The position numbers and the translations under genes were made by a program. Shown piece after piece: positions 4,873 to 22,359 of a stretch of 64,000 nt of DNA. The stretch comes from Phallus indusiatus (Eukaryota > Basidiomycota > Agaricomycetes > Phallales > Phallaceae), in contig JAQFWX010000021.1 of NCBI GenBank assembly GCA_027605045.1, positions 186,001-250,000 of the forward strand. Reading direction: 5' to 3'. The notes beneath the pieces are model-generated. The model saw only the letters and a list, made by a program, of their open reading frames with translations. It was not told the DNA's origin and ran no database searches. Position 1 is the stretch's first letter; each line of letters starts with the position of its first letter.

Positions 4873-5259
4873 TGCGCTACCGCCGTCTCTCATTTTTCTA
4901 TTTATTATCATTGGCATCATTTCATTCCTATTCCATTTACCGTTTCCGTATTTTACTTTTACTTTCCGTTCCCTTGTTCTGTCTCTATTTCACTTTCCTT
5001 ACTCGCACGCGTAGCGCGCTCGTACACGGCATGATGCCCGTGACATCACGTCGCTTAGGTTCGGCTTAGGCGCCTGGCACTTAGCTGTGTCAGGGCCGCA
5101 CGCCACGTCGTCATTTTATGTATATAGTAGCTGTACCTAGAGTGAGGGTCCCTAAGCTTGTTCTCTTAGGATCCCCTCCCTCTAGGTGAGTAGTATAGTT
5201 ATCTTCCAATATATTGCTTAGGATCCCCTCCCTCTAGCCCGAGCTGAGTAGCCCTAACA
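4868..5259 (+). mobile_element. Solo LTR b, Gypsy-1 family, inverted against LTR a
   Basis: This is the same family as LTR a but in plus orientation. It ends GAGTAGCCCTAACA, with a slightly altered start (TGACAGGTGCGC). With LTR a it forms a near-perfect inverted repeat of about 390 bp per arm and no internal sequence. No flanking duplication is visible, which suggests recombination between elements rather than two simple insertions. Confidence 0.85.
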
Positions 5260-5267
5260 AGGGCCCC

Positions 5268-5663
5268 TGTTAGGGCACGACCGTTCAGCGATAAGACTTA
5301 AGGATCGGACTGCTACTATAACCCAGTAACCCAGTCTATAATAGCGCAAGGAACTACACATGCGCGCACGGAAGTATATATACATGTTTACGTTATCTCT
5401 AACCAATAACTAACAGGTGCATTATCTGCCAATAGGAAGAGTCGGCAGTCGAGGACATACGAACGACATAGGGAAGGAGGGAGATGTGACAGAATGAGGC
5501 GAACGGAGAAACGGAGGGAGTTCGGGAGAATACGCGGGGGATGAGTACGGACCGGCATACCGGGTACCGTAAGACCGACGTAGAGCACGTAGGCATCTAA
5601 GTAGGTCGTACTATACTACGCTAATATACTAGAATGACCGTAAACCCGGGACGTACCCTGACA
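5268..5663 (-). mobile_element. Solo LTR c, related but distinct family, target duplication GCCCC
   Basis: The ends TGTTAGGGCACGACC and GGACGTACCCTGACA resemble the Gypsy-1 LTR ends, but the interior differs. It is 396 bp long. GCCCC occurs directly on both sides (5263-5267 and 5664-5668), a clean 5-bp duplication, so this is a solo LTR left by LTR-LTR recombination. A TATATATA stretch lies inside near 5367-5375. Confidence 0.85.
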
Positions 5664-5679
5664 GCCCCGATCAGAGTAT

Positions 5680-6075
5680 TGTTAGGGCTACTCAGCTCAC
5701 ACTAGAGGGAGGGGATCCTAAGAGAATGTATTGGAAGGGAAACTAACTACTCACCTAGAGGGAGGGGATCCTAAGAGAACAAGCTTAGGGACCCTCACTC
5801 TAGGTACAGCTACTATATACATAAAACGACGACGCGGCGTGCGGCCCTGACACAGCTAAGTGCCAGGCGCCCAAGCCGAACCTAAGCGACGTGATGTCAC
5901 GGGCATCACGCCGGGTACGAGCGCGCGACGTGCGCGAGTAGAGAAAGTGAAATAGAGACAGAACAAGGAAACGGAGAGTGAAAGTAAAATATGGAAATGA
6001 TAAATAGAATAGAAAGGAAACGATGCCGATGATAATAAATAGGAAAATGAGAGACGGCGGTAGCGTACCCTGACA
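5680..6075 (-). repeat. Gypsy-1 3' LTR
   Basis: This 396-bp LTR has TG...CA ends. It is preceded, on the element's strand, by the polypurine tract. It differs from the 5' LTR at about three positions. Confidence 0.9.
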
Positions 6076-6088
6076 CCATCCCCCCTTC
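6076..6088 (-). promoter_or_regulatory. Gypsy-1 polypurine tract
   Basis: On the minus strand GAAGGGGGGATGG directly precedes the 3' LTR (TGTCAGGG) and overlaps the integrase stop codon. This is the expected primer for plus-strand DNA synthesis. Confidence 0.8.
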
Positions 6089-7612
6089 AACGAGGCGGCG
6101 TCCCGACGCCTGTAGCTTCGACTAATGACGCCTGTAACTTTGAGAAATCGAACCGAGGGCGACGATGGAAAAGAAGGCCATTTATCGAGCGTGGCGCACT
6201 CGGATGTTCGCGGTGGAATTCCTTAATGAGATCCGGGGCTGCAATATTTGACTCGGGTTCCCACTGATCGTGCTCGGGACCATAGCCTTCCCAACGCACC
6301 TTATACTCGAGTCGTCTCCGGAAGACACGACTGTCTAAGATCCGTTCCACGACATAGTGTTCACCATCATCTCTGACCTCAGGAGGGGGGGGGGCCTTAA
6401 CGCGACGACCCGGGATTGTATCTTCAACCTTTGGACGCAACTTCCCGACGTGGAACACTGGATGAAGCCTTGACATCGACAGTGGTAAACGCAGCTTGTA
6501 TGCGTGTGATCCGACCTTGCTGACTATCGGAAAAGGCCCCAAGTACCGATGCGATAACTTGGCGGAGGGCCTGGTGGTACGGATATCGCTCGAATCAAGG
6601 TATACCTTGTCGCCAACCTTGTATTCAGGTGCCGGGATGTGTTTCCGATCGTAGTACTTGGCCATCTCGTCTTTCGACCTGGCTATAGCGGCCTTGGCTT
6701 CCTCTATTGTCGACTCCATACGCGTCTTGAACTCGTTGACAGATTCGATCTTTGAGTCGGCAACCAGCGGTTCGAATCCCATACGAGGATGTCGTCCAGT
6801 GTCGAGTTCAAAGGGTGTTGAACGCGTGGCTGAGTGTACGTGGTTGTTATATGCGAACTCAGCCAAGGGCAGTATCTGGTCCCAGTCGTCCTGTCGCTCA
6901 GAGGTGAAAAGTCGAAGGTACTGTTCGACTTCTGCGTTGACACGCTCTGTCTGACCATCGGTTTGAGGATGATATGCCGTAGAGGGTGCAAGCCGTATGC
7001 CAAGGAGCCTAGAAAGCTCCTGTGTGAAGCGGGACGCGAACTGGGGGCCCCTGTCAGAGATCACCTTCATGGGGAGACCGTGGAGCTTCCAGACGTGTTG
7101 AAGGTACAGACGGGCTAGACCTGTCGCGTCAAGTGTCGTAAATGTCGGCACGAAATGAACCCGCTTGGTGAGAGAGTCGACGACAGAGAGGATAGCGTCG
7201 AAACCGTTGGATTCTGGTAGCTCCACGATGAAGTCGACTGAGATGTGTTCCCAAGGTCGACTTGGCACTTCTGTGGGTCGGAGAAGGCCATAGGGAGCAT
7301 GACGAGACGGTTTCGTACGTAGACACATGTCGCAGGCCTCGACATAGCGTTGGACATACCTAGAGACACCCGGCCACCAGAAGGTGCGCGAAACGAGCTC
7401 GAGAGTCTTGAAACGACCCGGGTGACCACCGAGTTTGGTGTCGTGGTGTCTGGAAAGGATTTTCCGACGCAACTCGTCGACGTTTGGCACGTAAACCTTG
7501 CCGTGATAATAGAGGAGGTCCTGGTCTTCAAACCATTCCGACGAGTGAGCTGAACGACCACCCAGTGCACGAAGTGTTGCAACGGCTTTGGAAACGCTAT
7601 CTTCGACCTTGC
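6087..7612 (-). pseudogene. Gypsy-1 pol, 3' part: integrase and chromodomain (separated from RT by an LTR)
   Basis: The C-terminal part of Gypsy-1 pol inserts element cDNA into the genome. It has a zinc-binding HHCC region (GGHPGRFKTLELV to CDMCLRTK). The catalytic core has Asp in SVDFIVELP, Asp in ISDRGPQFASRF and Glu in TDGQTERVNAEVEQ. A GPY-like region follows, then a chromodomain with YKVRWEGYGPEHDQWEPESN that is thought to steer insertion to modified chromatin. The frame is open across 7490-7612 up to the LTR. Deleting the LTR and one CTTGC rejoins it in frame with the RT part at 8012. As it stands it has no promoter or start of its own. Confidence 0.9.
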
Positions 7613-8011
7613 TGTCAGGGTACGCTACCGCGTCCCCTCATTTTTCCTCATTTATTATCATCGGTATATATTCCCCTCTACTTTATTTATATTTCCCATA
7701 TATTATCTCCACCCTCCGTTTGCTCCCTCTGTCTCTATTCCACTTTCTCTACTTGCGCGCGTCGCGCGTTCGCACCCGGCGTGACGCCGTAGGCGTCACG
7801 TCGCTTATGTTCGGTTTGGGCGTCTGGCACTTAGCTGTGTCAGGGCCGCACGCCGCGCTATCGTTTTTCATGTATATAGTCGCTGTCCCTAGAGTGAGGG
7901 TCCCTAAGCTTGTTCTCTTAGGATCCCCTCCCTCTAGGTGAGTAGTTAGTTCTCCCCAATATATTTATCTTAGGATCCCCTCCCTCTAGTGTGAGCTGAG
8001 TAGCCCTAACA
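7613..8011 (+). mobile_element. Solo LTR e (Gypsy-1 family) inserted in Gypsy-1 pol
   Basis: This 399-bp LTR in plus orientation runs TGTCAGGGTACGCTACC to GAGTAGCCCTAACA. It is flanked by CTTGC at 7608-7612 and 8012-8016. It has the TATATA box and AAGCTTGTTCT (7906-7916). The host element is of the same family, so this insertion shows continued activity after Gypsy-1 arrived. Confidence 0.92.
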
Positions 8012-10435
8012 CTTGCCTTCCCGATTGGCCTTGCGAATCTGGCGTAGCAAGTCCTCCTCCTCCCCTTTAAGGCGGAATGTTTGCAGAGCATTGATTGCAA
8101 ACATTTCGGGTCAGATTAGGGTGACGCCACGATTGTCGTCCTTTCCCGAGCCATGATCTGGGTGGCGGGATAGGCCATCAGGTTTCCCCATCGACTTACC
8201 CGGTATATGCTGTAGGGTGAAGTCGAATCGCGAGAGATATACTGACCATCTAGCTTGACGACGATTGAGGTTTCGCGCGGACATGAAATACTCGAGATTC
8301 TTGTGATCAGTCCGTATGTCGATAGGGTGAGATGCGCCTTCGAGAAAGTGTCGCCATTCCTCTAAAGATCGTATGATAGCGAGCATCTCCTTGTCGTGAA
8401 TCTCATAGTTGCGTTCGACAGGGCTGAGGGCCTTCGAGAAGAACGCAACTGGGTGCCATTTACCGTCCTCGTTCGACAACTGTGAGAGAACCGCGCCTGT
8501 TGCAAAGTCGGAGCTGTCTGCTTCAACCCGGTAAGGATTAGCGGGGTTGGGAATGAGAAGAATGGGGGCAGAGGTGATCGACGACTTCAGAGTATCGAAA
8601 GCATGCTGACAAGTGTCGGACCAGACGAAAGGCGTATCTTTCTTGGTTAACCCGAACATGGGATTGGCAATACGCGCGAAATCCTTGATAAACCGACGGT
8701 AGAAGTTGGCGAAGCCCAAGAAGGACTGAACCTCAGTGACGTTCTTCGGGATGGGCCAGTCTCTGACACCCGAGACTTTCGCGGGATCCATCTCGACGGT
8801 GTTCTCGGAAATGACAACACCCAAGTACTCGATCTTAGTCCGGCAGAATTCGCACTTCTCTGCCTTGAGATACAGCTTGTGCTCGCGGAGACGTTCGAGA
8901 ACGCGTCGTGTTACCTGGTCATGTTGTTCCCGATCCCGAGTATAGATGAGAATGTCGTCGATGTAGACGGCAACGACACCTTCCGAGATCATGTCCTCGA
9001 AGATCTCGTTCATCATTGTCTGGAAGGTCGCAGGGCTATTTGTGAGACCAAAGAACATTACCAGAGGTTCGAAAAGGCCGCGGTTGGTGCGGAAAGCAGC
9101 CTTCCACTCGTCTCCTTCCTTTATCCGCACATTGTTGTAACCCCAGCGCACGTCCAGCTTGGTAAAGTACCGGGCACCTTGCAATTTGTTGATGAGCTCT
9201 GAGATCAGGGGCAGCGGGTAACGGTTCTTAATCGTCATAGCATTCAATGCCCGATAGTCCTGGATGAGACGAAGAGAGCCATCTTTCTTCTTAATGAAGA
9301 ATACCGGGGACGCCATGGGCGACTTGGAGGGTCGGATTCGTCCAGACGCAAGGTTTTCTTCTAGAAACGCATCTAACTCGGCCTGCTCGTTGGGTGACAA
9401 CGGGTAGATCTTGCACGACTTGGGCTCAGAACCTGGCACAAGCTCTATCGGGTGATCCCACTTCTTCGATTGCGGCAACGAGTCGAACGACTCCTTCGAG
9501 AAAATGTCGGCAAAGTCGTGGAACCTCTCTGGCACGATATCCCGAAAACCCTTGGGAGCTGGTACGTCTGCGTTGTTGGCGTGGGCCTGCGCCAGTCGCT
9601 GGGAGATGGTCTCGGTGGCATATATGCGGTGAGTGTCGGGCTCGTCGGGTAGCATTGATATCGCGAACAGTCGATCACCCTCTTCAATCTCAGACTCGAC
9701 GTCGACCAGGTCTGGTATGTCAGGATCATCGGCCTCAGTGTCGTCGAGCTCTGGCAGAGGTGCGCATCGGATCTGTTGGAACGCGCGCTTAGAGAGCTTA
9801 CCCGCTGGCCAGCGTGGGGCACAAGACCGACAGCTGGGGCTGCAGCGCATGAACTCTACTTGACCAGTTGTGTAGTCTATAACGGGATTGTGAGCCTTGA
9901 ACCACGGCAGTCCAAACAGGACGGGATACTTGAGTGAGGTAACGGCGAACAAGGTGCGTTCAGAGTGATCCCGAAAGCGAACAACGAGGTCGACAATGTG
10001 GGTGATAGAGCCAGCGTGGTTGGGCGTACCGTCGACGTTAAACACGGGAATGGGTTTAGCAAGGCGTACGGAGGGAAGCCGATGTTTCTCGACAAAGTCG
10101 CGATCGAGGAACATACCGCTAGCCCCGGTGTCCAGCATGGCCTTGCTGTGCAGCAGGGCTCCGGTGTCAACACTCTGTAGCTCTACTGGAATCTCTAGCT
10201 TCTGTGTGCCTGCGGTAGCTGCGAGTCGGTATTCCTTTGGCAATGCACGACGTTGAGAAGGCGACAGCATACATGGGGTAGAAACAGAACGTGTGGCAGG
10301 TGGAGGCGATTCTTTGGGTTTGTCAGGGGATGCAACAGGGGTAGTTAGATTCGAATCAGAAGTGTCATTTTGTTCGCGATCTATGTACAAAATGTCGAAT
10401 CTATTAGATGTCGGCAACGAGGGTGCATCTGTCAC
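8012..10435 (-). pseudogene. Gypsy-1 pol, 5' part: protease, reverse transcriptase, RNase H
   Basis: Starting in the -1 frame relative to gag at 10435, this part has an aspartic protease (MLDTGASGMFLDRDF) and a reverse transcriptase (FIKKKDGSLRLIQDYRALN, YIDD catalytic box). RNase H follows (VEADSSDFATGAVLSQL) and the frame runs to a TGA at 8111-8113. The same frame stays open past that stop (PEMFAINALQTFRLKG) until the inserted LTR, so the TGA is premature and probably a C-to-T change of a CGA codon. Gag and pol overlap by 4 nt. No canonical slippery heptamer is seen in the overlap, so the frameshift mechanism is unclear. Confidence 0.9.
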
Positions 10436-11730
10436 TCGTCGCCGTTTTGAAAATCCTCTACCTCTGTCGCAGCCACAGTCTCGCCCTGGGTCAGAGCAGA
10501 GTCACCACGCGCCTGGGCTTCCAACGCGTCTTTCTGGGCCAACAAATGTGCGATATTGTCGTCCAATTCGTCGGGCTGGAGATACCGAATGTCGTACGCG
10601 CGAGGGCATTCACGAGCCCAATGGCCTGTTGCTCCACAACGATGACATCTGGTCGATTCTGGGCCTAAGCGTCGACGAGCAGCGTCAACGTCCATCGGGT
10701 CATGTCTAACCTGGGATGTAGGAGCAGAAGCCGCAGGTCTAGGAGGCAACGCGGGCGCGAGTTGAGGTGCTGGCCTGGGAGGTGGGTAAGAGGGAGCTTG
10801 ATAGGAAGGGGCAGGGGGCCTCCTCTGGATCTGGAGGGTCTGATACGACGGAAAAGGGTTGGGACGGGGTCGATTAGTGGGGACAATCGCGGGATTCGTC
10901 TGAACCGTTCCAGAGCCTACGAGTCGGCGACGAGCAGCAGTGAAAGCCTCGTTGGCACGCCTGTCCATGTCAAACATGCGTGCTTGCCTGATCCAGCCCT
11001 CGTAGTCGTGAAGTGCGGGTCGGTCCTTCATCGTCGCTACCAGAGATGCAATTGTCGGGTCCAAACCGTTACGAAAGTACGTGTTAATGGCGAGTCCTTC
11101 CGTAAAGCCAGCGTGCTCAATGAGCACGCGGAAGGCATCCACATACTCTTCTACAGTCCTGTTGCCTTGGACATAGCGGTTGGAATAGAGGGTGTTGATG
11201 GCATCCTCTTGCTCGGATTGTGGAAAGAAATCAGCCTTGAATCGTTCCCGAAAGGCATTCCAGTCTGCGAAGGGCTTCTCTCCTCTTTGATACTTTTTCA
11301 GCATAGATTCGCTGAAGGTAAGGGCGCGGCCTTCATTCATGTACGACATTGCCCAGCCGATTTTGAGTTCATCAGTCTCGAAATCGCGACTGCATATACT
11401 CATGTAAAACTCGACGGTGTTCCAGAAGGCATGACCCTTGGAGCGATCTCCGTCGAACGAAGGAGGTACAGCAGGTCGGGTATTTCGGGAAGAGCGTGAA
11501 CTGGCTTGATGCTCAGGAGCCGGTGGTTGTCCAGGTGAGGACGCGTCGTCAACAGGGGTGTTTTGGGTAGGAGCAGCTCTAGCCGCGTCTCGGATGCTCC
11601 GTAGGACCTCAATCATCTGTGAGGCCTGGGATTCCTGTCTTGCCATGCGGGCATCCATTTCCGCGAATTGCCGCATGATAATAGTCGCCACATCTTCGAG
11701 GGTGACGATTTGGGGTGCAGAGGGTGGGGG
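10432..11730 (-). pseudogene. Gypsy-1 gag, main part (start codon displaced by Gypsy-2)
   Basis: This is capsid/nucleocapsid protein that assembles the intracellular particle. The central region (FDGDRSKGHAFWNTVEFYM and following) is the retrotransposon gag fold. A CCHC knuckle CHRCGATGHWAREC lies near the C-terminus. The original N-terminus is now at 20125-20136, beyond Gypsy-2: an ATG at 20136 encodes MDSS and rejoins in frame through one copy of the GGGGG/CCCCC duplication. The open frame visible to 11781 runs into the Gypsy-2 LTR and its start there is spurious. Confidence 0.88.
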
Positions 11731-12425
11731 TGTCACGCCCGGCGTGCCCCGTAACCTTTTCCGGAGGGTTACGTAAGTCACACCTCGGTACCCGAGGTTC
11801 TATCCAAGTACGTATCACGTACTTGTCTCGCACTTCCCCCGTACTTTATGCACAGCCCTCCGATCCGTCTATTCCCAAATGGAGCTTGCCTGTCCGACAT
11901 TCCGATTAACCAGGACTCATCCGTCCCGAACTCTGCCTAAATATCTGTCCTAGTTACAACCATTCCTTTCTTATCTCTTTCCCCTTTCAGAATAGTATTT
12001 CCGTACTCGTGTATTTAAACCCCAGCTCTATAGCTGGGAATCCTCAGTCAGAATATAGTATTAGTCTTCCGTTCTTCTCTTCTATCTGTTCCGCCTCTGT
12101 TCTTATCCGTACTCTGCGTACTCTGTCTCGTACTTAGTTGCGGACTTGTGCGTAGTTTAAGTCTAAGTCGTCGTTAGACGTCTAGGACATCTGAAGTCCA
12201 TCGTCGTACTAGACGTCGGACTTGTGCGTACTTGATACGTACTTCTCTCGTTCTCTGAAATCGAGGGATATCTGAAGTTGGGCGAGTGGGCGCAGCATAT
12301 AAGCTGAAGCCAAGTCCCTCACACCCGTACTCTCCGTACTTCCTTTATTCTATCTATATCCGCACGCACGTGTTTCGTACTAGACCGGACTTTGCCGGGA
12401 TAGACGCGGAACACGGCGCTTGACA
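11731..12425 (+). repeat. Gypsy-2 5' LTR
   Basis: The ends are TGTCACGCCCGG and GGCGCTTGACA. A TATTTAAA box lies at 12012-12019. The predicted transcript start at about 12044 is 32 nt downstream and begins the 14-nt motif TCAGTCAGAATATA that is complementary to the priming site. I count 14 GTAC in 695 bp. Confidence 0.95.
12012..12057 (+). promoter_or_regulatory. Gypsy-2 TATA box and predicted mRNA 5' end (self-primer)
   Basis: TATTTAAA (12012-12019) is followed at 12044-12057 by TCAGTCAGAATATA, the exact reverse complement of the sequence one base after the LTR. The 32-nt TATA-to-motif distance fits a transcription start at the motif. Confidence 0.6.
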
Positions 12426-12426
12426 G

Positions 12427-12440
12427 TATATTCTGACTGA
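12427..12440 (+). promoter_or_regulatory. Gypsy-2 primer-binding site, complementary to its own mRNA 5' end
   Basis: TATATTCTGACTGA starts one base after the 5' LTR. It is perfectly complementary over 14 nt to 12044-12057. This is the layout of Tf1/sushi elements, in which the mRNA 5' end folds back and is cut to prime reverse transcription instead of a tRNA. Confidence 0.65.
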
Positions 12441-12485
12441 CTCGCTCACCAGCTTCGTCAGTCAATCGATTTCTCTTCTTCTATC

Positions 12486-14288
12486 ATGTCTTCTACTTCA
12501 ACCACTCGTTCTTCCAAGGTCGGTCAACGCTTCGGACTCCGTGTAGAGGCCAACGACCCCGACTCTCCCGAGGTTATTAGGAATCTCAGGAGTCGAGCAA
12601 TAACACCGATCCCTCTCAATCCCAATGTCCGTCCCTCTACGGTACGGGCAACATCGGAAGACCCAGCCCCTCGAAACCCTACGGAACAACGTGCCGATCG
12701 TGCTGCAACTCCCAATCACAATCAGTCCTCGTACCCGGAGTTGCCCGGACGACACAATTTCCAATCGGCAACCATCGAAGAGGTTGTCGAGGAGCAGGAC
12801 CCCAATGCTTATGATTACCCTTTACCACCCTCTCATTCTTCCAACGCTGACATTGACGAAGTTCTAGTTCCTCGTTCTCAAAACTCTATGCCTGAGGACG
12901 AAGTGCAAGAACCTCCACCATCAGCTCCTCCGGCCGCCGACCCTCCTGGCCAGTCACCCGGCCCACCATCTGACCCGGGCGACGACCAAGACCCCGACGG
13001 CCGTTCATTCCACACTCCATCTCATCACTCTCGATCTCGTGCCCCAAGTCGTTCCGCTGCCCCTGGACCTCCAGGACCTCCCGGACCTCCGGGCCCGCCA
13101 GGTCCTCCAGGTGGTGGTGGCGATGACGGGTCTAATCCCTCTCGCGGAGGTGGCACCCCTCGTTCTCGAACTCCCAGGGCAGCTCCACCCCAGGAGCTCT
13201 CCGGGTCTGAGCAATTATCTCGTGTTTTGGCACAGATGAATGAATTCCTTTTGGCTCAGGCTCGTCTCAATGCCCAGGCTGCTCAAGCTCCGGCTCCACC
13301 TCCACCTCCTCCTCCTGTCAGTACTTCCAAGATCAAAGTACGCCCGCCCGATACCTTCGACGGGTCCTCCCCAGAAAAGCTTCGTATTTTCCAGACTCAG
13401 TGTCTGTTGAATTTCCGGGCGAGGCCCGAGCAGTTCGTTCTTGGTTCTCAGAAGGTCATCTTCGCGATGACCTACCTCTCTGATGCAGCAACCCAGCTCA
13501 TTACTCCCTATGTCGAGACCGGCAAGGAGTATGATTGGCTCAACGACTGGGATGCTTTCACCCGCTTCCTGAGTACCATCTTCGGGTCACATCGTCCCGA
13601 AGAAGAAGCTGAACGCAAGATCCGTGCACTCCGTTTTCCGGACTCTGGCAAGGCGTCAACGTACTTCATTGACTTCGCCAAGTACGCCGTACAAGTCAGC
13701 TGGGATGATCGTGCTTTGTATTCCCTAGCTATAAGCCAACTCCCTGATCGTATCCGAGATCGTATCGAGGATTCTGGACAGAACCCAGCGACTCTCAGCC
13801 AACTACGCGACCTCGTATTCAAGTACGACGCCATTCACTGGGAACGTGTCAACCGGAAGAAGGACGAGAAGCGTCTCCATGACCGGATCGTCTCTGAAAA
13901 CCGAAAGACGCCCAATGCTGGACCCTCTACCTCCAATCAAAATAAGGGTAAGAGTTCTAGCAGCAGCAACAACAACTACCAGAAGTCCGACAAGAAGCCC
14001 GCCTCCGGATCCACCTACCAATCCAAAGCAAACCCCTCACATCTTGGTAAGGACGGTAAGCTCACCCCAGCCGAGAGGCAGCGTCGCATAGATAACAATC
14101 TCTGCCTGATCTGTGCCGACAAGGGCCATATGGCCGCTACCTGCCCCAAAGCCCGTGCTAACCCGTCCTCCTTGCAGTTCCCGTCCAAACCCAAGGCTGC
14201 CCGGGGCGCTAACACCAATGAATCCGGTACTCCCGTCGCTGAGGCCAAGCCCGAGGCGAAGTCCGAGAGTACGGAACCAAAAAATTAG
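12486..14288 (+). CDS. Gypsy-2 gag polyprotein (600 aa)
   Basis: This is a structural protein for virus-like particles in the cytoplasm. The ATG at 12486 is the first after the leader. Residues 1-200 are Pro/Ser-rich and end in a collagen-like Gly-Pro-Pro run (about 13062-13115). The gag core follows (VRPPDTFDGSSPEKLRIFQ onward, about residues 283-460). A basic Ser/Asn/Lys-rich stretch precedes a CCHC zinc knuckle, CLICADKGHMAATC, at residues 540-553. Translation ends at TAG 14286-14288, immediately after the slippery sequence AAAAAAT, so most ribosomes make gag and some shift into pol. Confidence 0.93.
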   Translation: MSSTSTTRSSKVGQRFGLRVEANDPDSPEVIRNLRSRAITPIPLNPNVRPSTVRATSEDPAPRNPTEQRADRAATPNHNQSSYPELPGRHNFQSATIEEVVEEQDPNAYDYPLPPSHSSNADIDEVLVPRSQNSMPEDEVQEPPPSAPPAADPPGQSPGPPSDPGDDQDPDGRSFHTPSHHSRSRAPSRSAAPGPPGPPGPPGPPGPPGGGGDDGSNPSRGGGTPRSRTPRAAPPQELSGSEQLSRVLAQMNEFLLAQARLNAQAAQAPAPPPPPPPVSTSKIKVRPPDTFDGSSPEKLRIFQTQCLLNFRARPEQFVLGSQKVIFAMTYLSDAATQLITPYVETGKEYDWLNDWDAFTRFLSTIFGSHRPEEEAERKIRALRFPDSGKASTYFIDFAKYAVQVSWDDRALYSLAISQLPDRIRDRIEDSGQNPATLSQLRDLVFKYDAIHWERVNRKKDEKRLHDRIVSENRKTPNAGPSTSNQNKGKSSSSSNNNYQKSDKKPASGSTYQSKANPSHLGKDGKLTPAERQRRIDNNLCLICADKGHMAATCPKARANPSSLQFPSKPKAARGANTNESGTPVAEAKPEAKSESTEPKN

Positions 14289-14327
14289 AACGCGTCCCCG
14301 AGGGCCAAGTACGACTCGGGGACGGCG
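14279..14327 (+). promoter_or_regulatory. Gypsy-2 gag-pol -1 ribosomal frameshift signal
   Basis: In the gag frame the heptamer A AAA AAT (14279-14285) fits X XXY YYZ and is followed at once by the TAG stop. The -1 frame is open and leads into the protease. A perfect 9-bp stem GTCCCCGAG/CTCGGGGAC (14294-14302 with 14315-14323) starts 8 nt downstream. Three more pairs (14291-14293 with 14325-14327, around one bulged G) would bring the spacer to 5 nt. Heptamer, spacer and stem all match known -1 sites. Confidence 0.85.
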
Positions 14328-17300
14328 CTATCTCCGAACGTACTATCCTTTTCCGTCATAGTGCCATTCCAACTTCGTCTTTCATTTCTGTTGTGAAATC
14401 TCCCCATGTCTCCTTTCCTTTTAAAGCCCTAATTGATTGTGGCTCATCTGATTGCCTAGTTAGTTCTGAATTTGTCTCAAAAAATAACCTTAAAACAAAA
14501 AATATTTCCCCTATTCCGCTAACTCTAATTGATGGTAGTACAAATTCTTATATTACTCAGTCATTAGAATTACCTGTAATTTTTCCGTGCAATACTTCCC
14601 AGACTCTAACCTTTTTTGTAACTCCGTTAGACCGTACTTCGGACGTAGTCCTCGGATTAAACTGGCTAACCCGCTACAACCCGTCGGTTGATTGGGTACA
14701 ACGCAGTATCACTTTCCGGGACCCCGCGACCTCTCGTACTGGTCTCCCGTCTCCGTACTCAGAACCTCCTTCCGTCCTTGCTTCTTCTGCAACCACTTCC
14801 TTTCCCGATGCTTCTCCTAGAGACACTTCGTGTCTGACGCCAAAGGCTCCCCACATCTCGTTTGTCAATGCCCCGGCCTTCTCCCGGGCTTGCAAACTTT
14901 CTGGTTCTGAAACCTTTAGGGTCTTCCTTGATAGCCCTGAAGTACACGCTCGAGCATCTGCAAGTACGGTTAACCCCGTACTCTCGCCTTTGGAGAACAT
15001 CCCGGAAGAGTACTTGGAGTTCGCTGATGTCTTCAGCGAAGCCAAGGCCAATACCCTCGCTCCTCATCGTCCTTATGATCTGCGAATCAATCTTGATGAT
15101 GGCGCTCTACCCCCTTTGGGACCAATCTACTCTCTCTCTGTTGTGGAACTACAGGCACTCCGGGAATTCCTGGAAGAAAACATCCGTACTGGGTTTATCC
15201 GGCCTGCCCGTAGTCCCTTTGGAGCACCCGTACTTTTCGTGCGCAAGAAGGATGGATCACTTCGTCTTTGTGTGGACTTTCGCGGACTTAACCGTATTAC
15301 CAAAAAAGACAAGTACCCACTCCCTCTCATTTCAGACCTTCTTGACGCTCCTCGTAAAGCCCGGGTTTACTCCAAGATTGATCTCAAGCACGCCTATCAC
15401 CTCGTCCGTATCGCTGAAGGCGACGAATGGAAGACTGCGTTCCGTACTCGGTACGGTTCGTTTGAATGGCTTGTCATGCCCTTCGGTCTTTCCAATGCCC
15501 CGTCTGCCTTTCAGCGTTTTATGAACGACATCTTCTCCGATCTCCTCGACGTTTGTGTAGTCGTCTATCTAGATGATATCCTCATCTATTCCGATGACAT
15601 GTCCCATCACCAGGAACATGTCCGCGAAGTACTGAGACGACTACGCAAGAACGGTCTGTTCGCATCACCCAAGAAATGTGAGTTCCACAAAGACACCGTG
15701 GAATTCCTCGGCTACGTACTCTCGAACGACGGCCTTGCCATGGACAATAGCAAGATCTCTGCTATCATGGATTGGCCCGAACCTCGTAAGGTCAAAGACA
15801 TTCAGTCTTTCTTGGGTTTCGCTAACTTCTATCGCCGTTTCATTGATGGCTACTCCCGTATCACCGTACCTCTCACCCGGCTCACCCGTAAGGACACTTT
15901 GTGGAACTTCGACGACAAGTGTCGCACGGCGTTTGAGTCGCTCAAGAGGGCTTTCACTTCCGCTCCCGTACTTGCTCATTGGCACCCGGAACATCAAATC
16001 ATCATCGAGACTGATGCCTCCGACTATGCCATCTCTGCCATCCTTTCCCAGTACGACATCTCCGGGGAACTTCACCCCGTCGCGTTCTTGTCCCGTACTA
16101 TGACTGCCCCGGAGTTGAACTACGACATCCACGACAAGGAACTTCTCGCTATCCACGAAGCCTTCTCCAAGTGGCGTCACTACTTGGAAGGCTCCGTACT
16201 CCCGGTGCAAGTCTTTACCGACCACAAGAACTTGGAATCCTTCACCAAAACCAAGATCTTGACTCGTAGACAAGCCCGGTGGTCTGAGTTCCTGTCCCAG
16301 TTTAACCTGGAAATCAACTTTCGTCCAGGGAAAATTGGTACTAAACCTGACACTCTGACCCGACGTTTTGACGTCTACCTTAAAGAGGGGAGTAGCGACT
16401 ACGCCAGTGCGAACTCCCATAACATCAAACCCATCTTTAACTCCGAATCCCTGGCGTCGTCCCTCAGGAGTACTCAACTACGGTACGTCCTGGCCCGAGC
16501 TTCGATTCTTCTGGATATCGACAAACTACATCGCGACATCCTCGATGCTCTAAGTACGGACGACACCGCCAAATCCATCCGCGATTCCCTACCCAAACAC
16601 CGCTGGAGTACGAATGACTCCGGACACTTGATGTTTGATGGTAGAATGTACGTACCTGACGTTGATGACTTACGCTTGCGGGTCTTACAGTTCTGTCACG
16701 ACCATCCCGTTTCTGGCCACTTCGGTCAAAACAAAACCTTGGACTTGGTACGCCGAAAATATTCTTGGGCGAACCTCCGTACTTCAGTCCGAGACTACTG
16801 CCAGTCCTGTACTACCTGTATCCGGTCTAAGTCCCAGCGTCACAAACCCTATGGGCTGCTGAAGCCCTTACCAATCCCTGATCGTCCGTGGAAAGACATC
16901 TCCATGGATTTCATCGAACACCTCCCTAAGTCTTCGGATTTTACATCAATCTTGGTGATCGTCGATCGTTTCACCAAACAAGGTATTTTCATTCCTACCT
17001 ATGATGAAATAACCTCCCAGGACTTGGCAAAGTTGTTCGTACTTCACGTATTCTCTAAGCACGGAGTTCCCTCCAACATCACCTCGGATCGTGGCTCGGA
17101 GTTTGTGTCGCACTTCTGGAGATCTCTCGGGAAGTTGCTCAACATGAACCTCCACTTCACCTCCGGCTATCACCCCGAGGCTGACGGTCAAACGGAGAGA
17201 ACTAACCAGACCCTGGAACAATACTTACGCTGTTACTGTAACTACCAACAGGACAACTGGTCCGAGCTTTTACCTCTCGCGGAGTTCGCATACAACAACT

Positions 17301-18013
17301 CCGAGAGTGCGACAACCGGGATATCACCGTTCTTTGCTAATAAGGGTTATCACCCGAGTCTTGTAGTTACACCCACAGACACTACTTCAGTTTTCGCCAC
17401 AGACTACGCTGTCAAGCTGGACGAACTACATGCCGTAGTTCAAGAACAGATCCGCATAGCACAGGTGCGGTACAAAACATCTGCTGACAGGCATCGTCTA
17501 GAGGCTCCAGTGTTTGAAATCGGATCACAAGTCTTTGTGAAGTCCGAGTTCATCCGTACTACAAGACCCGCGAAGAAACTCTCAGAAAGGTACCTCGGAC
17601 CTTACGAAGTCATAGCCCGTCCGGGCTCCCATTCCTATACCGTACGTCTACCTCATGATCTCCGTTCCATTCACCCTGTGTTCCATGTCTCTATGTTGGA
17701 ACCCTTCATTCCGAGTACTATACCCAACCGTACTCCGGATCCTCCGGGCCCGGTAGAAGTCGATGGAGAAGAGGAGTACCAGATCGATTGTATTCTGGAC
17801 TCCAAGATCGACAAACGCCGGAAGACATGCCCACTGCTGTACAAGGTAAAGTGGACGGGGTACGAGAGTACGGACGACTCCGAGTCATGGGTACTCGCCA
17901 ACGAGCTACATGCAGAAGAATCCATCAAAGAATTCCACGCCGCTTATCCAAACAAGCCCGGACCCCTTTCCGTACTTCGTTTTAACCCGGATACACAAAC
18001 TTACATAGTCTAA
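14279..18013 (+). CDS. Gypsy-2 pol: protease, RT, RNase H, integrase, chromodomain
   Basis: This is the replication and integration polyprotein, reached by -1 frameshifting at 14279-14285. The frame is open from there to TAA/TAG at 18011-18013. Domains in order: an aspartic protease with ALIDCGSSDCLV (Asp codon 14435; Cys replaces the usual Ser/Thr after Asp); reverse transcriptase (RKKDGSLRLCVDFRGLN) with YLDD at 15566-15577; RNase H (IETDASDYAISAILSQ); an integrase HHCC region (HPVSGHFGQNKTLDLV to CQSCTTC); the catalytic triad in SMDFIEHL, TSDRGSEFVSHFW and DGQTERTNQTLEQ; and a chromodomain with YKVKWTGYESTDDSESW. No disabling change is visible. A GTG at 14393 is not a start. Confidence 0.95.
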   Translation, partial: KKLERVPEGQVRLGDGAISERTILFRHSAIPTSSFISVVKSPHVSFPFKALIDCGSSDCLVSSEFVSKNNLKTKNISPIPLTLIDGSTNSYITQSLELPVIFPCNTSQTLTFFVTPLDRTSDVVLGLNWLTRYNPSVDWVQRSITFRDPATSRTGLPSPYSEPPSVLASSATTSFPDASPRDTSCLTPKAPHISFVNAPAFSRACKLSGSETFRVFLDSPEVHARASASTVNPVLSPLENIPEEYLEFADVFSEAKANTLAPHRPYDLRINLDDGALPPLGPIYSLSVVELQALREFLEENIRTGFIRPARSPFGAPVLFVRKKDGSLRLCVDFRGLNRITKKDKYPLPLISDLLDAPRKARVYSKIDLKHAYHLVRIAEGDEWKTAFRTRYGSFEWLVMPFGLSNAPSAFQRFMNDIFSDLLDVCVVVYLDDILIYSDDMSHHQEHVREVLRRLRKNGLFASPKKCEFHKDTVEFLGYVLSNDGLAMDNSKISAIMDWPEPRKVKDIQSFLGFANFYRRFIDGYSRITVPLTRLTRKDTLWNFDDKCRTAFESLKRAFTSAPVLAHWHPEHQIIIETDASDYAISAILSQYDISGELHPVAFLSRTMTAPELNYDIHDKELLAIHEAFSKWRHYLEGSVLPVQVFTDHKNLESFTKTKILTRRQARWSEFLSQFNLEINFRPGKIGTKPDTLTRRFDVYLKEGSSDYASANSHNIKPIFNSESLASSLRSTQLRYVLARASILLDIDKLHRDILDALSTDDTAKSIRDSLPKHRWSTNDSGHLMFDGRMYVPDVDDLRLRVLQFCHDHPVSGHFGQNKTLDLVRRKYSWANLRTSVRDYCQSCTTCIRSKSQRHKPYGLLKPLPIPDRPWKDISMDFIEHLPKSSDFTSILVIVDRFTKQGIFIPTYDEITSQDLAKLFVLHVFSKHGVPSNITSDRGSEFVSHFWRSLGKLLNMNLHFTSGYHPEADGQTERTNQTLEQYLRCYCNYQQDNWSELLPLAEFAYNNSESATTGISPFFANKGYHPSLVVTPTDTTSVFATDYAVKLDELHAVVQEQIRIAQVRYKTSADRHRLEAPVFEIGSQVFVKSEFIRTTRPAKKLSERYLGPYEVIARPGSHSYTVRLPHDLRSIHPVFHVSMLEPFIPSTIPNRTPDPPGPVEVDGEEEYQIDCILDSKIDKRRKTCPLLYKVKWTGYESTDDSESWVLANELHAEESIKEFHAAYPNKPGPLSVLRFNPDTQTYIV

Positions 18014-18229
18014 ACTCAGTCAATCTTTCATCTTTTTTCTTATCTCGTAGTTACTACCTTTACGATCCGTACCCCGCACTTAAAGTCCGAGGCTGGAACT
18101 TCCCAGCCCCAAACATTTCTCTCTTTTTTCACACTTCCGTTTCACGCGTATTATTCGACTCTTGTTACAATCTTATTTTCTTTCACTATAGTACATCTGT
18201 CTTTTTTTTTACTTCATCTTCTATTCCGC
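18014..18229. other. Gap between convergent pol and antisense gene
   Basis: About 215 bp of T-rich sequence separates the pol stop from the stop of the antisense gene. It could hold 3' ends for both transcripts. Confidence 0.4.
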
Positions 18230-19299
18230 TCACTCTTCCCCTTCTTCTTCATCATCGCGCAACGAAACCGCGATCCTTTCCAACCACGTCAAGGACCGAC
18301 GTTGAAGCCTATTGGACTCCGCAATCTCTGCCGTAATAGCCTGCAAAGCCTCCAATACTTCCCTGTTCCCAGGTACTACACCATCTCCGTCAGTCCGAGT
18401 ACTGGCGGACTCCTTCCCCTTTCCTTTTTCCTTTCCTTTCCCGCCTCCGCGAGTATGAGGTGCCTGTTGACTGTAACCACAAACATGGTGGCCAGTAGCG
18501 CACTCAGCGCACGCATGCTTCGCCCTCGTACCGACTGGGTTCAGCTGCCGATGGCAACGGTAGTCTTGACCCTTGCAGTGGGGGCAGGGTTCGTCGTACC
18601 TGACAGGATCCACGGTTACGCGCTCAAAGTACTCCCGAAGACGCTTGCTGCCTCGTGCAACCTTGATGTACGGGTCCGTCCAGTCAATCAACGGCTCAAT
18701 GTCCTCCGTATCGTCCTCGGGAACGTCGTCCGGGACAATGAAATCACTCATAGCCTGGAAAACGACTTAAGTAACCAAGTAATCCCAACAATCCGTACTT
18801 ACTTTTCTCGCCCGCTTCGCAGGCTTTGCCTTGGCACCAGAGGTAGAGGCGTGAGCCTCAGCCTCTTCATCCATCTCTCTAACCCGCTTCGTCCCAACGT
18901 TGTTCTACGATCATCAGAAGTGAGAAAAAACAAAGTGGTCAGAACACGTACTTTCATGGGGCTACGCGCCCCTAACGCCTTCTCCCTCTCCGCCACTTGG
19001 CGTTTTAACTCCTTCAACTCTTTCTGTTCGCGTTCTTCTTTCGCCTTCTGCTCCTCCCATTCCTTAATCCTGTCTGCACACTCTTTCCCATAATTAAGTC
19101 GCAACTCGCGTAATATCACGTCCGACATGAAGCGCGTCTTCTCCGGAAAATCAAGATCCGCGCACGCAGGATGCATCATCTTGGTGGAGGGTGGCGACGA
19201 AGGGGGAGGCGTGTTTCTGAGGGTGGGGGATAGTTCAGGGGCGTTGCCTGCAGCATTAGAGGACGACTGGGGTGGAGAAGAGACAGGAGCAACAGACAT
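18230..19299 (-). CDS. Gypsy-2 antisense gene: spliced 324-aa protein with Zn2Cys6-like cluster
   Basis: Minus-strand exons 19299-18952, 18904-18803 and 18754-18230 join in phase 0 through GT-AG introns of 47 nt (GTACGT donor) and 48 nt (GTAAGT donor). The N-terminal third is Pro/Ser-rich. A charged helix (about residues 60-112, e.g. EWEEQKAKEEREQKELKELK) looks like a coiled coil. Exon 2 is basic (AKPAKRARK), a possible nuclear signal. Residues 207-242 have Cys spacing C-x2-C-x6-C-x14-C-x2-C-x6-C, close to the fungal Zn2Cys6 DNA-binding cluster except for a longer linker. The C-terminus is helical and acidic. The gene lies between integrase and 3' LTR, convergent with pol. A regulatory or chromatin role is inference only. 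Confidence 0.75.
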
Positions 19300-19411
19300 A
19301 GTGGTAAGGACGAAGGAACTTAGAGATGAAACACCAGAATTTTCACCTTACATAATCATCAACAAACTCCGACCACTGTCATAAGCGCTGGACCTCACGG
19401 GGTTCGGTCTT

Positions 19412-19424
19412 GAAGGGGGAGTAC
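19412..19424 (+). promoter_or_regulatory. Gypsy-2 polypurine tract
   Basis: GAAGGGGGAGTAC directly precedes the 3' LTR and closely resembles the Gypsy-1 tract. Confidence 0.75.
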
Positions 19425-20119
19425 TGTCACGCCCGGCGTGCCCCGTAACCTTTTCCGGAGGGTTACGTAAGTCACACCTCGGTACCCGAGGTTCTATCCA
19501 AGTACGTATCACGTACTTGTCTCGCACTTCCCCCGTACTTTATGCACAGCCCTCCGATCCGTCTATTCCCAAATGGAGCTTGCCTGTCCGACATTCCGAT
19601 TAACCAGGACTCATCCGTCCCGAACTCTGCCTAAATATCTGTCCTAGTTACAACCATTCCTTTCTTATCTCTTTCCCCTTTCAGAATAGTATTTCCGTAC
19701 TCGTGTATTTAAACCCCAGCTCTATAGCTGGGAATCCTCAGTCAGAATATAGTATTAGTCTTCCGTTCTTCTCTTCTATCTGTTCCGCCTCTGTTCTTAT
19801 CCGTACTCTGCGTACTCTGTCTCGTACTTAGTTGCGGACTTGTGCGTAGTTTAAGTCTAAGTCGTCGTTAGACGTCTAGGACATCTGAAGTCCATCGTCG
19901 TACTAGACGTCGGACTTGTGCGTACTTGATACGTACTTCTCTCGTTCTCTGAAATCGAGGGATATCTGAAGTTGGGCGAGTGGGCGCAGCATATAAGCTG
20001 AAGCCAAGTCCCTCACACCCGTACTCTCCGTACTTCCTTTATTCTATCTATATCCGCACGCACGTGTTTCGTACTAGACCGGACTTTGCCGGGATAGACG
20101 CGGAACACGGCGCTTGACA
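19425..20119 (+). repeat. Gypsy-2 3' LTR
   Basis: This 695-bp copy appears identical to the 5' LTR by eye and is followed by the GGGGG target duplication. Confidence 0.95.
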
Positions 20120-20303
20120 GGGGGTGAGGAATCCATGAGAGAGAGAGAAAGGAAAAAAAGGGGTTTTAGGACAGAGCAGAGGGGTCGATTATAGACGGGA
20201 CTCGAGGGGAAAATACGACGCTGCGATAGTCGGTGTCGAGCGCGATTTTTCAATAGTGAGTGTCGATAGAAACGACCAGTCTGCGAGTAGAAGCTTGTTC
20301 TAC
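20120..20303 (-). other. Gypsy-1 gag start and leader
   Basis: On the minus strand the leader runs from the 5' LTR to the original gag ATG at 20136 (MDSS, then the GGGGG/CCCCC duplication). It is AG-rich on the plus strand. The priming site is at its beginning. Confidence 0.75.
20291..20301 (-). promoter_or_regulatory. Gypsy-1 primer-binding site, complementary to its own mRNA 5' end
   Basis: On the minus strand AGAACAAGCTT begins two bases after the 5' LTR. It is the exact 11-nt reverse complement of AAGCTTGTTCT in the LTR (20410 down to 20400). The neighbouring bases on either side do not extend the pairing. TATATA (20443-20438) begins 33 nt upstream of 20410. The Tf1 self-primer is also 11 nt. 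Confidence 0.65.
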
Positions 20304-20699
20304 TGTTAGGGCTACTCAGCTCACACTAGAGGGAGGGGATCCTAAGAGAATGTATTGGAAGGGAAACTAACTACTCACCTAGAGGGAGGGGATCCTAAGA
20401 GAACAAGCTTAGGGACCCTCACTCTAGGTACAGCTACTATATACATAAAACGACGACGCGGCATGCGGCCCTGACACAGCTAAGTGCCAGGCGCCCAAGC
20501 CGAACCTAAGCGACGTGATGTCACGGGCATCACGCCGGGTACGAGCGCGCGACGCGCGCGAGTAGAGAAAGTGAAATAGAGACAGAACAAGGAAACGGAG
20601 AGTGAAAGTAAAATATGGAAATGATAAATAGAATAGAAAGGAAACGATGCCGATGATAATAAATAAGAAAATGAGAGACGGCGGTAGCGTACCCTGACA
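20304..20699 (-). repeat. Gypsy-1 5' LTR
   Basis: This 396-bp LTR has the TATA box and predicted transcript start described for the priming site. AGTAT follows at 20700-20704, matching 5675-5679. Confidence 0.9.
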
Positions 20700-20704
20700 A
20701 GTAT

Positions 20705-21910: not shown

Positions 21911-22359
21911 GCTTATGTAAACAAAAATTGAAAATGTAGATATCAAAAAATTATCTAATACATTTTTTTCCATTTTGGATTTGGAGCAAAATTGAGCTTT
22001 CTAGAGCAAAAATAAAAAATTCGCACAAATACCTCGATAATTGCTTTGGGCGTCTATTGTTTAAGTGGGTGCTTATGTAAGCCAAAATCGAAAATGTAGG
22101 AAAAAATAAAATATTTAGTACATTTTTTTCCTTTTTTGATTTGGAGCAAAATTAAGCTCTCTAGAAGCAAAATAAAAAATTTGCACAAGTGCCTCCTCTG
22201 GTTCAAAAATAAAACCTGGGTACCTGCGGGTACCTGCAAAAAATTCAAGACTGAAACCTGCACCCTTGCATTTTTAAGGGAGTCCATACCTGCACCCTTG
22301 AGTTTTGTGACAGGTACCTGTCACGGGTACCCGGGTATAGCCATACCCGTGAACAGCCT
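21911..22359. mobile_element. TA-flanked MITE-like element, copy 2 (truncated, inverted)
   Basis: This is the reverse complement of 3601-4096 of copy 1, with much of the GGGTACC-rich part missing. The intact end is ACCCGTGAACAGCCT, followed by TA (22360-22361). The other end breaks at GCTTATGTAAAC without the terminal repeat. Confidence 0.75.

Follow-up and report, generated by a model that had tools for sequence, protein, structure and literature searches.

Positions 11731-20119 of the window, the whole 64-kb stretch of DNA analysed, are occupied by a Ty3/Gypsy LTR retrotransposon with gag, pol and, between pol and the 3' LTR, a gene on the opposite strand (Table 1). The LTR pair is identical over 696 aligned bases (695 bp each once the TG..CA ends are set) and, since it is without a difference, the insertion is probably young. 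The pol product matches the Pfam families RVT_1 (6.8e-42), rve (4.3e-9) and Chromo (5.7e-8), the last with 33.0 bits against a cut-off of 25.1, and the presence of reverse transcriptase, RNase H, integrase and chromodomain identifies the element as a chromovirus. It is seemingly nested in another Gypsy element on the minus strand (5000-11730 and 20120-20702), whose gag-pol lies left of the insertion (8111-11730); right of it, 20301-20699 is 99% identical to 5677-6075 and looks like an LTR of this outer element. A direct repeat pair (21911-22035 and 22071-22195, 125 nt, 83% alike) has a further match to its left, around 3.6-4.1 kb.

The first-pass annotation had modelled the antisense gene as three minus-strand exons encoding 324 residues, and its coordinates, intron lengths, phases and cysteine spacing were all reproduced here. 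The six cysteines (residues 207, 210, 217, 232, 235 and 242) are arranged as C-x2-C-x6-C-x14-C-x2-C-x6-C, a pattern that occurs a single time across the six frames of the window.

Table 1. Features of the host element and of its antisense gene (positions in the window).
Feature	Position	Strand	Remarks
Left target-site duplication	11726..11730	.	GGGGG
5' LTR	11731..12425	+	695 bp, TG..CA, identical to the 3' LTR
gag ORF	12486..14288	+	600 residues; weak PF16297 match, E 1.5e-5, below cut-off
pol ORF	14393..18013	+	1206 residues: protease, RT, RNase H, integrase, chromodomain
Antisense exon 3	18230..18754	-	525 nt including stop
C-terminal long helix	18236..18373	-	Predicted model; exon 3 residues 128-173, possible dimerisation helix
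Six-cysteine cluster	18479..18586	-	Zn2Cys6-like
Intron 2	18755..18802	-	48 nt, GTAAGT..CAG, phase 0; donor common to 7/7 copies, L019 acceptor 3 nt further
Antisense exon 2	18803..18904	-	102 nt, basic (KRARK) end
Intron 1	18905..18951	-	47 nt, GTACGT..TAG, phase 0; same site, GT..TAG, in 7/7 copies
Antisense exon 1	18952..19299	-	348 nt; ATG, Pro/Ser-rich N-terminus, charged coiled-coil-like stretch (by eye)
GATTATGTAAG, TATA-like, upstream of antisense ATG	19347..19357	-	Varies as GATTAYRTMAG in the 7-copy alignment; putative role
CGGAGTTTG, upstream of antisense ATG	19363..19371	-	Kept in 7/7 aligned copies; putative role
Polypurine tract GAAGGGGGAG	19412..19421	+	Role suggested by sequence
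3' LTR	19425..20119	+	13 AGTACG/CGTACT sites, 12 in the same orientation
Right target-site duplication	20120..20124	.	GGGGG

Copies of the antisense gene and their spread

Separate searches of the genome (a 67.2-Mb assembly of 206 contigs) with exon 3 and with exon 1 led to the identical seven places, here family 1, and all seven have LTRs, pol in sense and the antisense gene ahead of the 3' LTR. The retroelements, together with the style of genes and introns, suggest that the genome is fungal. Six of the antisense copies encode 309-327 residues; in the seventh, L020, the antisense gene is broken and pol is broken as well. The introns of the family are 43-51 nt long, end in TAG or CAG and differ in sequence, save for those of L018 and L020, which are the same. 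Over exon 3 of the six open copies, the antisense frame contains 0 stops, against totals of 34, 54, 8, 21 and 37 in the remaining five frames. A 263-codon ORF on the opposing plus strand was rejected as the real gene, because each of the other five copies interrupts it with 1-2 stops in the exon 3 region. Most of the 15 antisense pairs have saturated Nei-Gojobori distances; over the 15, pN ranges from 0.105 to 0.380 and pS from 0.51 to 0.81. In every pair pN is lower than pS and, therefore, the antisense protein is under purifying selection, with a Ka/Ks of 0.13 in the least saturated pair (window and L015). The introns kept among the copies, pN below pS, the stop-free frame and the unique six-cysteine pattern exclude a chance ORF. 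The first-pass annotation had tied the reality of the gene to homologous antisense frames under selection in other elements, and had named as contrary evidence copies that lose this frame and keep gag and pol; six other elements of the host genome carry the homologue, the only broken one has a broken pol, and the proposal was not refuted in the seven copies. In L017 and L019, pol is interrupted by several hundred bases and the antisense gene is still open.

A search with pol, in which 38 of 693 candidates were scored, returned 42 rows: six of these, at 41% identity, form a separate group, and the other 36 correspond, after joining split rows, to 32 elements, which are a part of the total. Homology searches with four queries gave the antisense loci, which were paired with pol by position and whose counts are lower bounds. 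An antisense homologue accompanies 31 of the 32 elements, always on the opposite strand and 20 to 1335 nt past the matched pol end, a count based on gene position beyond pol (LTRs were confirmed in the 7/7 family-1 elements). The families that carry the gene differ from each other, with about 65% pol identity. The sole scored exception, the C195 element, has sequence of another LTR element in the interval of the antisense gene. The six rows at 41% identity gave 0 matches to the four antisense queries, and the six-cysteine pattern is absent from L032, L045 and L046, the three of them that were read directly. Beyond the antisense-less pol of L032, the minus strand (655-2472) contains two long ORFs, of 313 and 327 codons, that probably belong to a neighbouring element.

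An oddity of one element is ruled out by these 31 relatives. The first-pass annotation had called a spliced antisense gene with a putative zinc cluster unusual for a fungal element: the presence of an antisense gene in a fungal Gypsy element is confirmed, it is not peculiar to one element, and brtn of Boty elements had already been reported (Zhao et al. 2011, as cited in PMC7264820 and PMC8365987). The comparisons show, at the level of sequence, that a lineage of chromodomain Ty3/Gypsy elements has conserved this antisense stretch as a gene with introns.

The six-cysteine domain and the predicted fold

In classical Zn2Cys6 clusters, the central loop has 5-12 residues. Among 15 homologues of the antisense protein (14-31% identity to the first), the six cysteines are the only invariant columns. 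The two CxxCx6C halves are present in 13 of the 15, including the window protein, with L031 and L042 having 14 and 11 residues in the first half. The central loop comprises 14 residues in six copies of the window family, thus exceeding the classical limit, 13 in L041 and 9-12 in the other eight homologues.

The profile of the 15 homologues, compared with the PDB, retrieved the Zn2Cys6 domain of LAC9 as top match (E 0.0021), with the six cysteines aligned, the next match being at 0.16, and the best relative, L030, matched the Pfam family Zn_clus (PF00172) with E 0.0014 and 19.2 bits, below the gathering score of 21.0. The window protein itself has no Zn_clus match in Pfam, and the profile of the window family's exon 3 alone found no Zn2Cys6 chain in the PDB. 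Thus, the Zn2Cys6-like cluster proposed from the window alone is sustained by the cysteine spacing, the relatives and the wider family profile, and is not recovered with the window protein or the exon-3 profile of its own family. AlphaFold modelled the cluster with a pLDDT of 66.5 and predicts two short helices, one at each CxxC; 25 of the 26 Foldseek matches of this model are Zn2Cys6 proteins, some nine distinct ones, each match being weak (best E 0.25). In the exon-3 model (mean pLDDT 58), the long C-terminal helix is the confident part, with pLDDT 70-88 over the block of residues 131-170.

The antisense protein is thus marked by six cysteines in a Zn2Cys6-like domain and by a long helix predicted at its C-terminus, and it is probably a DNA-binding protein. 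It shares with LAC9, Gal4, Leu3 and Ppr1 the six-cysteine cluster, the short predicted helix at each CxxC and a potentially dimerising helix; it differs from them in the longer central loop, the location of the cluster in the C-terminal half and a score under the Pfam cut-off. In L030 (2031-2240), the cluster matches the Pfam Zn_clus profile crosswise, its first half resembling the second half of the profile and its second half the first, as if swapped; since LAC9 aligns collinearly, we take this as a curiosity and claim no permutation.

Antisense alleles and gag-pol backbones

The antisense gene and the backbone that carries it have diverged to very different extents. In family 1, the gag of L015 and L017 and their pol as far as the integrase core are 96-99% alike to the window element; the two copies reach 94 and 87% in the last part of pol and, ahead of the ATG of the antisense gene, 98 and 88%, as against 49-86% in the antisense exons; the introns of the family, with 40-68% identity to the window, are among the least conserved parts. 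Ks in gag, pol and antisense gene is, respectively, 0.04, 0.16 and 0.85 between window and L015, 0.06, 0.15 and saturated between window and L017, and 0.05, 0.21 and 2.2 between L016 and L018. Overall, antisense Ks goes mostly from 0.5 to saturation and pol Ks from 0.06 to 0.35, leaving aside L019, which is diverged throughout (gag Ks 1.7-1.9, pol 1.0-1.2) and offers no contrast between backbone and antisense gene. Pol distances refer to residues 421 to the end in family 1, and family 2 was compared over the last 500 pol codons and the cluster exon only.

In family 2 (six copies, 15 pairs), pol Ks is 0.06-0.11 in all pairs and antisense Ks 0.48-1.59 in 14 of them; in the remaining pair, the antisense Ks of 0.02 is under its pol Ks of 0.07. 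The cluster exon has a Ka/Ks of 0.11-0.27 in 14 of the 15 pairs (0.54 in the near-identical C204-C150) and the protein is, therefore, constrained. The pol and antisense distances are uncorrelated (r 0.14, with 35% of permutations as high), and nearest neighbours switch along the antisense gene. With the gene only and without C143, the breakpoint signal was unmatched by 500 shuffles in 22 of 30 triplets; with C143 and flanks, this was so in 51 of 60, a count inflated by the C143 triplets. Despite their differing alleles, the family-2 elements (C143 excepted) are 86-99% alike in the LTR for about 1.1 kb past the antisense ATG. In the C143 copy (L037), unrelated sequence takes the place of the start of antisense exon 1 and of the LTR side. 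Intron 1 of family 2 (L028 and L033-L036) has a mean pairwise identity of 0.89, compared with 0.74 and 0.73-0.80 in the flanking exons.

These comparisons show that, in both families compared, divergence is mostly much greater between antisense alleles than between the gag-pol backbones carrying them, and that the family-2 alleles are mosaics. As judged from the aligned copies, the antisense gene behaves as a recombining cassette, with old alleles sitting on younger backbones. Positive selection in place was discarded as the main cause of the divergence, given that the introns and intergenic DNA of family 1 diverge too and that pN is lower than pS. A general co-evolution of antisense allele and U3, suggested by family 1, is contradicted by the alike LTRs of family 2. 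Balancing selection would give such a pattern of old alleles persisting on homogenised backbones; a neutral alternative is reduced gene conversion where sequences had already diverged.

The motif RAGTACGGA and the possible role of the antisense protein

Zn2Cys6 proteins bind the triplet CGG. The window element contains 56 AGTACG/CGTACT sites (13 in each LTR, 28 in gag-pol and 2 in the antisense gene), whose extended form, RAGTACGGA, includes a CGG. On the sense strand, CGTACT prevails, with 44:12 over the element, 18:10 in gag-pol and 12:1 in the LTR, and the same polarity was observed in two other families; in gag the bias is opposite (4 AGTACG, 1 CGTACT). The density of AGTACG is 18.7 per kb in the LTR, 5.05-5.86 per kb in the six other family-1 loci (9.9-kb stretches), 0.4 in host DNA and 0-0.7 in the stretches scored of other families. 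Pol has 21 sites, against 3.8 +- 1.7 in synonymously shuffled versions of it (maximum 9 in 300 shuffles); gag has no excess, with 5 sites against 2.1 in shuffled sequences (maximum 5). Between the window element and L019, the sites coincide at 3 positions in the LTRs, which are 59% alike (13 and 11 sites, 0.6 expected), at 4 in gag (5 and 7 sites, 0.6 expected) and at 7 in the later pol (13 and 10 sites, 4.2 expected). Judging by these alignments, the motif sites of family 1 are kept and, in the LTR, also re-made.

A de novo scan for such motifs yielded AAATCG in family 3 (C142; score 12.1, maximum 8.2 in 120 shuffles) and, marginally, TCGGAA in family 4 (C112; 9.7 against 8.9), where AGTTCG, scored as a single motif, also exceeds its shuffle maximum (14 sites, maximum 9). 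The 3' pol of L019 misses the de novo threshold and passes the single-motif one. Nothing exceeded the shuffle maximum in families 2 and 5 (C150 and C131), in which the gene is present, or in any of three antisense-less pol genes, giving 3/5 antisense-bearing families against 0/3, numbers too small for significance. The density of AAATCG is raised in families 4 (2.5 per kb) and 2 (1.9 per kb) as well, and that of AGTTCG attains 3.7 per kb in an LTR of family 2, so that AGTACG alone is clearly private. The counts thus show the window's family to be strewn with a private, orientation-biased and CGG-bearing motif, RAGTACGGA. The motifs spread over LTR and coding sequence are CG-centred and differ by family (window element, L048-L049).

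Antisense genes of this kind, located between pol and the 3' LTR, are already known, in plants and in the Boty elements of Botrytis. According to PMC7264820, the function of the antisense genes of LTR elements is not known. As described there and in PMC11963269, the aORF-3R genes share with the window gene the position, the orientation, the presence in most copies and a suspected DNA-binding or nuclear product; the window gene differs in that its protein is Zn2Cys6-like, that it has two introns and lies in chromodomain elements of a fungus, and in the exchange of its alleles as a cassette and the private motif array. No TRP28 (PF04195) match was found in the Pfam scan of the window protein. 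Compared by its description, brtn of the Boty-like elements of Botrytis cinerea is, like the window gene, an additional antisense gene of a fungal Ty3/Gypsy element, and the passages cited on it make no mention of a zinc cluster, cassette exchange or motif (PMC7264820; PMC8365987). For such antisense genes, we did not find a zinc cluster, introns, retention across families, cassette exchange or a motif array in the literature searched.

We hypothesized that the antisense gene encodes a DNA-binding regulator that targets its own element, or an anti-silencing factor, with a logic akin to that of VANC, a tentative reading based on sequence and analogy to which we give a probability of about 0.45. 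The antisense transcript would arise from its own promoter, in the conserved stretch between the ATG and the 3' LTR or in that LTR, and would be spliced; the protein would enter the nucleus, dimerise and bind the RAGTACGGA arrays across its own element family. This binding would tune the element, most likely by preventing silencing or switching the LTR on, with repression as the alternative sign. The antisense orientation may also let the introns survive, as the packaged sense RNA would carry them as an unspliceable complement, and the recombining alleles would be a response to antagonism from the host or between elements. VANDALs are DNA transposons and the window element is an LTR retrotransposon. 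Both the VANC system of Arabidopsis VANDALs and the window element pair an element protein with a short, dense, family-specific motif in the same orientation, binding being described for VANC and a candidate property here (PMC5735166; PMC10398659). We favour anti-silencing because this signature, including related proteins that use different motifs, is that of VANC in the accounts cited (PMC5735166; PMC10398659).

Several observations run counter to self-targeting. The alleles of family 1 differ while its motif is constant, and the LTR of family 2 does not vary with the allele; therefore, allele diversity does not track motif specificity. Moreover, no motif was found in families 2 and 5, which have the gene, and many motif sites lie in coding sequence, unlike the VANC21 targets, VANDAL targets being described as noncoding tandem repeats (PMC5735166; PMC10398659). 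Motif and protein are linked by co-occurrence only, and the CGG makes self-targeting more plausible. It is a real possibility that the array is separate from the antisense protein and acts as a DNA or sense-RNA signal for Gag, integrase or a host factor. The sense-strand bias would fit an RNA signal, as would the families with the gene in which no motif was found fit a separate array; the opposite bias of gag is awkward for an RNA signal, and the CGG in the extended core speaks for a zinc-cluster target.

Self-targeting, the reading that we prefer, might be part of a self-recognition system, in which the antisense Zn2Cys6 product would read the private motif, the alleles would be kept diverse by balancing selection and swapped as cassettes, and host copies would act against the system or derive from it. 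We consider this extension, suggested by the sequence patterns, rather unlikely; if true, retrotransposons would have a parallel to the heteroimmunity of phages or to the VANDAL/VANC arms race. The window family offers a likely DNA-binding fold, a candidate target motif, free-standing copies and similar backbones that bear a natural series of alleles; this would make the role of antisense genes for a retrotransposon directly testable, and the family suggests how a retrotransposon can keep introns.

HBZ of HTLV-1, from a human retrovirus, is likewise encoded antisense beside the 3' LTR, and it is a regulator. It is spliced, and it is a bZIP protein rather than a zinc cluster. An HBZ-like product would modulate host or element transcription in trans through host factors, without binding motifs of its own element. 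The layout is the same (antisense, beside the 3' LTR, with introns, a basic region and a helix) and HBZ is described as nuclear (PMC11963269); however, the conserved core of the antisense protein resembles a DNA-binding cluster and the element bears a dense private motif, so we regard this role as unlikely.

Less probable still, the antisense transcript would act as RNA, pairing with genomic RNA, feeding RNA silencing and limiting copy number, with diverged cassettes escaping resident small RNAs. Small-RNA roles of antisense transcripts are discussed in PMC7264820; the hypervariable block between the pol end and the antisense ATG makes up much of the would-be double-stranded stretch, most family-1 pairs come close to saturation at synonymous sites, and the poorly conserved introns of that family are allowed by such a role. 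Purifying selection on the protein, open frames and kept introns argue against it, and the family-2 intron 1, better conserved (0.89) than the exons in five copies, is the opposite of escape at every base.

Seventeen of the 48 antisense loci have no pol in the scored table, and five of these 17 form the free-standing set examined (L039 in C34, L040 in C162, L041 in C173, L042 in C140 and L043 in C44). In each of the five, an N-domain exon and a cluster exon are present and open, and the fetched stretches of 3.7-4.0 kb have no match to the window gag/pol, the LTR or the other element sequence compared. Going by their sequence, the element gene may derive from such copies, or they may be its domesticated descendants. 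A host branch may thus exist, but the most doubtful explanation is that the element captured a host gene that does nothing for it or, conversely, that the host adopted genes of the element, as retention in 31 of the 32 scored elements at about 65% pol identity and purifying selection argue against a passenger. Concerning the motif, the genome contains 43 occurrences of the tandem pair AGTACGGAGAGTACGG, against 0 of the control, and 35 of these 43 pairs lie outside the seven elements, perhaps in solo LTRs or other copies.
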